Source of the DNA: Candidatus Nitrosymbiomonas proteolyticus
GTDB taxonomy: Bacteria; Armatimonadota; Fimbriimonadia; Fimbriimonadales; Fimbriimonadaceae
Reading direction: 5' to 3'
Assembly (NCBI GenBank): GCA_017347465.1
Contig: AP021858.1
Location: 1,568,472-1,632,471 of the forward strand
Length of the DNA: 64,000 nt
Shown: positions 1 through 1,738 of the stretch, in pieces
How the letters are laid out: each line of letters begins with the position of its first letter
How positions within the stretch are numbered: the stretch's first letter is position 1
Position numbers and translations under genes: made by a program
The notes under the pieces: model-generated
The model's input: only the letters and a program-made list of their open reading frames with translations
Told to the model about the DNA's origin: nothing
Database searches by the model: none

Positions 1-1459
1 CGTCGAACGCCTGGCGTTTGGAAAGGGGATACAGGGGATTGTGCTTCGACTTTGGCTTTTGCAGTAGCTTGAAAAGGTGGATCGGATCGCCGAAGTACGT
101 CTCGAGGTCCTGCATAAAATCCAGTTGAGCATGTTCGACATCTTTCGTCAGGTGGAGATCGGCACGCCACTTCTCCCCGAAGACCTTCTTCAGGGCGATT
201 TCGGTGGTGTTGCCTTGAATGCCATTGGGGCTGCCTTTTGACCCCTCAATCGTGAACCTGCCAGCCCTGCCCACTCTGAGCCTCTCGCGAATCTTCGGCC
301 ACGTAAGAAAGGGGGTCGATTGGAGTTCATCCGCCAGCGGGACAAACTCTTCGGGAGTCAGTTCCCGCACGTCATCTCCGACGACTAGTCTGAGGTTGCG
401 TAGTGTTTCCAATATTCGGTAGCGATGGGAGACCCAATGCCCGCGCCGAGCAACGGGTTTCGCCGAACCCAAAAGTGAACAGGCGCGAAATTGCCTGAGA
501 GCTTCGTTTGAACTTACTCCCGCAACGTATCCCCGCTTGGGTAGCAAGACTCGAAACGGCTTGAGGGGTCTCTGTTCGAACGCAGATCTGACGAGGGACT
601 TGTTGGCGGTCGTGAGAATGTCGGGATAGAACTGGGACTGGAAGTCCCAAATCCTGTCGAACTCGTCCTCCAGCCACTCCCGCGAAAGCCGATTGACCTT
701 GCGTTTTTTCTGACCTTCTGGCAACGAATGAAGGTAGCGTCCGATGGTTGAAAGGCCTGACCTCTCCCACCTTTCTTTAAGGGCATTGATCGCGTCAAGT
801 GTCTTTCTGGGATCATCGCCAACGTCAACTTGCAAAGCTACATCAGACTCGTTTCCATCCACGACTTGGCTGGCACTCCGCGCATCCGTTCCTGCGATCT
901 GAGCGCTCATGGTGTCTGTCTCTTCATCTACGTCGACGGATTCGTCGGTTTCCCGTACCCACTGGCGAAGCTCTTCGTCGCCCGCAAAGGGCGAACCGGG
1001 CGCGATCAGGTCTGCCAACTTGGCCTTACGGTTGCTACGGAAGCCCCGTCGCTGCAAGATGTGTTGGAGAGCCCGGCCGATTTCAAAGAGCTCGACCTGT
1101 TCACCGATAGCTCGGCTTCGAATTTCGTAGGGATTGAGGAATCTGCCTTCCTTCTTCGGGCTCCACCGCCCGAGTACCCGGTCACGCTCGACTGCATCTT
1201 CCGGTAGCAGTCCGATGATCGTCAACGCCCTTTCCACGTTCCGACGGCGTTTGGCGCTCCGGTCGATTGTGCGCCGCTGTCCCCGAAAACCACGACGCTT
1301 CGCGTTAAGCGTGATTTTGGACTTCTCATCGACGACCCCGCTGAACACCCGGCTGTTCGCCCAAAGGACTTCGAGGATTTCGTCGTCGTCATTTACTTCC
1401 AGAAGCGCGCCGCCCACCGAAGCTTCGCCCAGGTCCAATCCCAATACCAGTCTTGACAT
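1..1459 (-). CDS. cas9: Cas9 endonuclease, N-terminal 486 residues (runs off the left edge), probably subtype II-C
   Basis: The minus frame is open from the ATG at 1459 to base 1, so the C-terminal half (HNH, RuvC-II/III, PAM-interacting domain) lies outside the window. RuvC-I is visible as LGLDLGEASVGG with catalytic Asp9. An arginine-rich bridge helix follows at residues 54-80 (RRGFRGQRR, then AKRRRN). Residues 109-145 carry the Cas9 signatures NPYEIRSRA and LQHILQRRGFRSNRK, and further REC hallmarks are LSREWLEDEFDRIW (258-271) and FEQRPLKPF (near 290). The compact N-terminal lobe, with the RRGF box by residue 140, fits the smaller II-C/II-A-like Cas9 proteins better than SpCas9; the subtype is inference. 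Residues 161-220 are an acidic, low-complexity stretch that looks like an insertion or linker. A GGGGGA ribosome site lies 6-7 bases before the ATG. cas1/cas2 and the array are expected beyond base 1. Confidence 0.93.
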   Translation of the reverse strand, partial: MSRLVLGLDLGEASVGGALLEVNDDDEILEVLWANSRVFSGVVDEKSKITLNAKRRGFRGQRRTIDRSAKRRRNVERALTIIGLLPEDAVERDRVLGRWSPKKEGRFLNPYEIRSRAIGEQVELFEIGRALQHILQRRGFRSNRKAKLADLIAPGSPFAGDEELRQWVRETDESVDVDEETDTMSAQIAGTDARSASQVVDGNESDVALQVDVGDDPRKTLDAINALKERWERSGLSTIGRYLHSLPEGQKKRKVNRLSREWLEDEFDRIWDFQSQFYPDILTTANKSLVRSAFEQRPLKPFRVLLPKRGYVAGVSSNEALRQFRACSLLGSAKPVARRGHWVSHRYRILETLRNLRLVVGDDVRELTPEEFVPLADELQSTPFLTWPKIRERLRVGRAGRFTIEGSKGSPNGIQGNTTEIALKKVFGEKWRADLHLTKDVEHAQLDFMQDLETYFGDPIHLFKLLQKPKSKHNPLYPLSKRQAFD

Positions 1460-1481
1460 TGCTGTTCCCCCGTGATATAGT
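1453..1481 (+). promoter_or_regulatory. Sigma-70-type promoter for the putative tracrRNA, overlapping the cas9 start codon
   Basis: The plus strand has TTGACA at 1453-1458 and TATAGT at 1476-1481 with exactly 17 bases between them, a near-consensus housekeeping promoter. The -35 box covers two bases of the cas9 ATG (1457-1459, read on the other strand). Transcription should start near 1488 and run away from cas9. Nothing else on the plus strand begins until the membrane protein at 1739. Confidence 0.75.
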
Positions 1482-1487
1482 CTCTAT

Positions 1488-1628
1488 CGTATCAGAAAAG
1501 AGTCTGCGGGTTGCATTCGATAAGAGCTCTGATATGCGTATCGAAGCTCGCAGGCAATACGCGAAAGCGTAGCCAAGTCAATGGTCTATGGGCCGAACTA
1601 AAGCTCTTCCTTCGCGGAGGAGTTTTTA
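1488..1628 (+). ncRNA. Putative tracrRNA of the type II CRISPR-Cas system
   Basis: This roughly 140-nt segment begins just downstream of the consensus promoter, is transcribed divergently from cas9, and ends in an intrinsic terminator. It contains a foldable 5' part (inverted repeats TTCGATA 1516-1522 with TATCGAA 1539-1545, and TATCAGA 1490-1496 with TCTGATA 1528-1534). A perfect tetraloop hairpin TACGC-GAAA-GCGTA follows at 1558-1571, then the terminator stem. Position beside cas9, size and a small hairpin before a terminator match known tracrRNAs. The anti-repeat cannot be confirmed because the CRISPR repeat is outside the window; it should lie in about 1488-1550. The alternative is an unrelated small RNA or leader. 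Confidence 0.55.
1604..1628 (+). terminator. Intrinsic terminator of the putative tracrRNA
   Basis: CTCTTCC (1604-1610), loop TTCGC, then GGAGGAG (1616-1622; one G-U pair) followed directly by TTTTT. This is a classic rho-independent terminator on the plus strand. Read on the minus strand the stem lacks the U-tract. Confidence 0.75.
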
Positions 1629-1738
1629 GTTTGTGATGGCCAGCCGATTTCCCCTAAACCCCCGCAGAGGAGGGCTGCTTTTTGCCCGGTGGGGTAAACA
1701 GCAAAGGAACGGTCGACGCTTGAAATCAGGAGGCGACG

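Follow-up and report, generated by a model that had tools for sequence, protein, structure and literature searches.

A divergent Cas9 in a probable type II-C CRISPR-Cas locus of an armatimonad chromosome, and apparent CRISPR-Cas turnover within the species

The window, meaning the whole 64,000-nucleotide stretch of DNA analyzed here, covers G000:C1:1568472-1632471 of the complete 2,809,316-bp chromosome of this genome (G000), and its left edge cuts through a cas9 gene on the minus strand. From its ATG, a single 486-aa open frame (window 2-1459, minus strand) leaves the window at the edge and runs on uninterrupted for 644 more codons in the flank. Downstream of cas9 and on the same strand lie cas1 and cas2, the three genes forming one operon with all frames open, followed by an 11-repeat CRISPR array, and a predicted tracrRNA gene lies directly upstream of cas9. 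An earlier note, made from the window alone, had placed the N-terminal half of a Cas9 at this edge and proposed that the flank be searched for HNH and RuvC-II/III motifs and for adjacent cas1, cas2, and array; the placement held, and everything that was to be looked for in the flank was recovered. The features are given below, where L002 is the locus sequence that includes the flank (L002 position minus 16472 equals window position).

Window 1..1459, minus strand: cas9 codons 1-486 (RuvC-I with D9, bridge helix, and most of the REC lobe), from open reading frame, profile, and alignment
G000:C1:1566538-1569930 (L002:14539-17931), minus strand: full cas9 gene, 1130 aa
Window 1453..1481, plus strand: sigma-70-type promoter (TTGACA and TATAGT 17 nt apart, TG preceding the -10); the first cas9 codons overlap it on the opposite strand
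Window 1484..1627, plus strand: predicted tracrRNA gene of about 144 nt, divergent from and directly upstream of cas9
Window 1489..1521, plus strand: anti-repeat, 33 nt, forming 32 pairs with repeat nt 1-33, several of them G-U, and one mismatch
Window 1600..1627, plus strand: intrinsic terminator of the tracrRNA
Window 1651, no strand: right border of the strain-specific segment, where homology to the conspecific genome G150 returns; the left border, L002:12523, is about 5.6 kb away, outside the window
L002:13638-14549, minus strand: cas1 (type II model TIGR03639, 257 bits), downstream of cas9
L002:13318-13683, minus strand: cas2 (above profile cut-off), downstream of cas9
L002:12570-13264, strand opposite to the operon: CRISPR array, 11 repeats of 36 nt, spacers of ~30 nt

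The 486-aa fragment alone matched the NCBIfam Cas9 model TIGR01865 at 184 bits (E 4e-54; cut-off 100), which excludes a chance match, and the full-length 1130-aa protein matched it at 483 bits (E 2e-144). The N-terminal hallmarks described in the earlier note were present as claimed: Asp9 in GLDLG, the Arg-rich bridge helix (RRGFRGQRR...KRRR), and the REC motifs QRRGFRSNRKA and EQRPLK. The rest of the protein, encoded in the flank, comprises RuvC-II, HNH, RuvC-III, and the C-terminal domain, and RuvC_III, HNH_4, and HNH all passed their Pfam cut-offs in the full-length sequence. The nuclease residues were all in place (RuvC D9, E575, H823, and D826; HNH H658 and N681) and were invariant when the protein was aligned with 12 relatives, as were R55/R56/R59/R62/R67/R71, R138-G139, S142, and Q296-R297-P298-L299. 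In the same alignment, residue 17 (window about 1409-1411, minus strand) is Gly, at the position where the RuvC-I ‘SxGW’ motif has a near-invariant Trp. The HNH domain also carries a CPYC motif at C637-C640 and a later cysteine, C680 (in HRAC), where the aligned relatives mostly have CPYT in place of CPYC. These cysteines perhaps form a zinc site similar to that of Actinomyces naeslundii Cas9.

The promoter of the predicted tracrRNA matches the consensus at 11 of 12 positions, and one such promoter was found where 0.3 were expected by shuffling; the predicted fold consists of the anti-repeat and then three hairpins plus the terminator. For the predicted tracrRNA, a search of Rfam returned no match above a curated threshold. 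Across 464 tiles covering the 19.5-kb locus, the repeat:anti-repeat duplex ranked first at -51.7 kcal/mol, ahead of -36.8 kcal/mol for the next unrelated tile; the reverse orientation gave -42.7 kcal/mol. This stronger pairing points to plus-strand reading of the array, in the direction opposite to the cas operon; the two would then face each other. Ten of the 11 repeats are identical and the first deviates at two bases. Each ends in TGATACACT at its 3′ end, an extended -10-like element resembling the extended -10 elements published at repeat ends of the C. cellulolyticum and N. meningitidis II-C systems (PMC7038990), which makes in-array transcription plausible. Searching the genome with the array recovered no second array with the same repeat, the whole genome contains one cas1, and a profile search of the locus found no further cas gene adjoining the operon. 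The complete genome lacked cas4 in a search with a working control, and a search of the genome for csn2, for which the control genomes supplied no positive control, detected none.

These features correspond to the published definition of type II-C, namely a three-gene cas operon with an array transcribed against it (PMC3936727). The gene content is an operon of three without cas4 and, subject to the control just described, without a detectable csn2; the opposing layout is predicted from the strand-specific pairing of repeat and anti-repeat; and a complete set of nuclease residues in one protein is accompanied by a tracrRNA anti-repeat complementary to the repeat. The closest solved structures by sequence (phmmer against PDB) were the II-C enzymes ThermoCas9, Nme1Cas9, and GeoCas9, followed by II-A Cas9s, with SaCas9, St1Cas9, and SpCas9 scoring lower than the II-C enzymes; the grouping with II-C is read from these best PDB matches and from the fold matches that follow. 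Foldseek with an AlphaFold model placed ThermoCas9, Nme1Cas9, GeoCas9, and HpaCas9 first, with E down to 4e-40; the model is of moderate confidence (pLDDT 71, pTM 0.49) and suffices for fold assignment, not for domain arrangement. Domain order and catalytic residues are thus shared with the Neisseria meningitidis and Geobacillus II-C enzymes (Nme1Cas9, GeoCas9, ThermoCas9), which are also the top structural matches; the three-gene operon with opposing array (PMC3936727) and the extended -10-like repeat end (PMC7038990) are shared with published II-C systems. In contrast to Nme1Cas9, GeoCas9, and ThermoCas9, however, the protein is only ~20% identical over the fold alignment, its HNH has the C637-P-Y-C640 pair and C680, and its repeat and tracrRNA are different. 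Gene content, RNA layout, sequence, and predicted fold therefore all bear out the II-C-like subtype put forward in the earlier note, and we place at about 95% the probability that the locus is a type II-C CRISPR-Cas system for adaptive immunity, complete and with cas9 as its effector gene.

Judged from the family, the function would be adaptive immunity by RNA-guided double-strand cleavage. The array would be transcribed from its left side and/or from the extended -10-like elements that close each repeat at its 3′ end; the tracrRNA would pair with the repeats, and the crRNA:tracrRNA pair would load Cas9, which would check for a PAM and cut both strands of matching DNA with its HNH (H658, N681) and RuvC (D9, E575, H823, D826) domains. 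Cas1-Cas2, together with Cas9, would insert new spacers.

The host is an armatimonad, as the earlier note had supposed: its family (f1) includes G131, whose Cas9 is identical to that of Fimbriimonadaceae bacterium SJ155, which assigns it to Fimbriimonadaceae, Armatimonadota. Among the matches listed, the best relatives of the Cas9 were ~30% identical and came from Fimbriimonadales, Acidobacteriota, Pseudomonadota, Elusimicrobiota, and Planctomycetota, and no close relatives were present in viral contigs. Phylogenetic analysis distributed the armatimonad Cas9s over several branches, with at least 2-3 label changes forced by the trees, and they are not one lineage. FastTree placed the query outside the other armatimonad Cas9s, without strong support, whereas IQ-TREE with a mixture model placed it inside an all-armatimonad group of 12 (SH-aLRT 93), paired with the Cas9 of L024 (SH-aLRT 90). 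The phylogenetic placement proposed in the earlier note thus joins the query to the Fimbriimonadales Cas9s with moderate support under the better of the two models, and other Fimbriimonadales II-C Cas9s are likely, though not conclusively, its nearest clade. It is nevertheless only ~30% identical to these (L021, L022, L024, and others) and forms the longest branch of the group. The suggestion of a little-studied Cas9 lineage stands in part: a literature search found no open papers on armatimonad Cas9, but a profile search recovered Cas9 above cut-off in 32 of 291 Armatimonadota genomes, in several distinct branches, and II-C Cas9s overall are well studied.

The long branch bears on the alternative that the locus is a decaying II-C system, with genes that are still readable and a Cas9 that no longer works as a nuclease or is no longer expressed, which we regard as unlikely. 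The Cas9 branch, at 2.14 changes per column, is the second longest of 49 rows, the W17G substitution falls at a near-invariant position, and the array gave no protospacer match better than chance against phages, plasmids, or 85 genomes of the family, which leaves no direct sign of recent activity. Five spacer ends likewise had no exact match in viral contigs, and spacer 9 has a 24/27 match in its own genome that recurs in relatives, falling within dnaK in one of them (L131). Against decay, all nuclease residues are intact and the cas9, cas1, and cas2 frames are open; the repeats are near-identical, the promoter is close to consensus, and the anti-repeat is complementary to the whole repeat. 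Moreover, of the 106 columns where at least 85% of rows agree, the Cas9 departs from the consensus at 12 (rank 14 among about 106), which is unremarkable and argues for divergence rather than decay. A type II-A or II-B system with its accessory gene, csn2 or cas4, placed elsewhere is very improbable: the csn2 search lacked a positive control in the control genomes, but cas4 is missing from the complete genome, no extra cas gene adjoins the operon, the array runs against the operon whereas a II-A array runs with it (PMC3936727), and SaCas9, St1Cas9, and SpCas9 score under the II-C enzymes. Least credible of all is an IscB/TnpB-type or type II-D (Cas9d) nuclease in place of a canonical Cas9, since the weak matches to NCBIfam Cas9d (163.9 bits, cut-off 375) and IscB (19.8 bits, cut-off 175) assign the protein to neither, against 483 bits for canonical Cas9 (cut-off 100), and since an 1130-aa protein with HNH, RuvC-II, RuvC-III, a full REC lobe, and II-C enzymes as nearest folds stands beside cas1, cas2, array, and tracrRNA, in keeping with the Cas9 identification in the earlier note. 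The preferred reading is accordingly a II-C system that is real, complete, and probably working.

Comparison with the conspecific genome G150 indicated that this system is strain-specific. Homology between the two genomes (95%) ends at L002:12523 and returns at L002:18123, and at this site G150 has 1.0 kb in place of the 5.6-kb CRISPR-Cas segment. The G150 sequence at the site equivalent to window 1-1650 (L126:1696-2486, minus strand) encodes a TacA-type antitoxin and a GNAT acetyltransferase. A II-C system of its own is present in G150 at a different chromosomal site (L125:5475-11400); it resembles that of G000 in gene order, repeat length, the last eight repeat bases (GATACACT), and, upstream of cas9, a tracrRNA whose anti-repeat matches, but differs in its repeat and in its Cas9, which is 25% identical and on another branch of the tree. 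In the G150 array (L125:5475-6697), two spacers are alike but for a single base, CGATTCGAACCTGCAGTTCCCGCATTGGTG and one ending in ...TTCGTG; the pair suggests one target repeatedly sampled, or escaping.

Where G150 has its system, the homologous site of G000 holds 2.1 kb of other DNA, and one G150-type repeat borders it. This fossil repeat (L127:11284-11319, minus strand; G000:C1:705283-705318) matches the G150 type at 34 of 36 bases, with the rest of the system gone, and it occupies the position of the first G150 repeat and shares its variant second base. The simplest reading of these paired sites is that an ancestor had a G150-type system, which G000 would have lost by deletion, and that G000 acquired (or retained) the window system, the CRISPR-Cas locus having been gained or replaced within the species. 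The low G+C of cas9 (56.2%, compared with 60.6% for 3.4-kb window tiles, the lowest tile being 56.9%) fits acquisition of the window system.

The machinery is of a well-known kind and would be an ordinary-looking II-C system, apparently unusual in the divergence of its Cas9 (~30% identity, long branch); the unexpected part is the turnover of CRISPR-Cas within one species. Neither the divergence nor the replacement alters existing knowledge of how Cas9 works. The locus adds a complete and directly testable Cas9 system (protein, tracrRNA, and repeat) from Armatimonadota, on whose Cas9s no open paper was found, and with ~30% identity to anything among the matches listed, this Cas9 may recognize a different PAM. 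With its paired sites and fossil repeat, the comparison of two conspecific genomes offers a clear example of a CRISPR-Cas system being lost and replaced. More tentatively, and short of what we would call probable, Fimbriimonadaceae may swap whole Cas9 systems and toxin-antitoxin modules at fixed sites, such that one II-C system would have disappeared from G000 except for the lone fossil repeat, and the II-C system now present would be unrelated to it, with a divergent Cas9 that may be specific for a PAM and guide RNA of its own.
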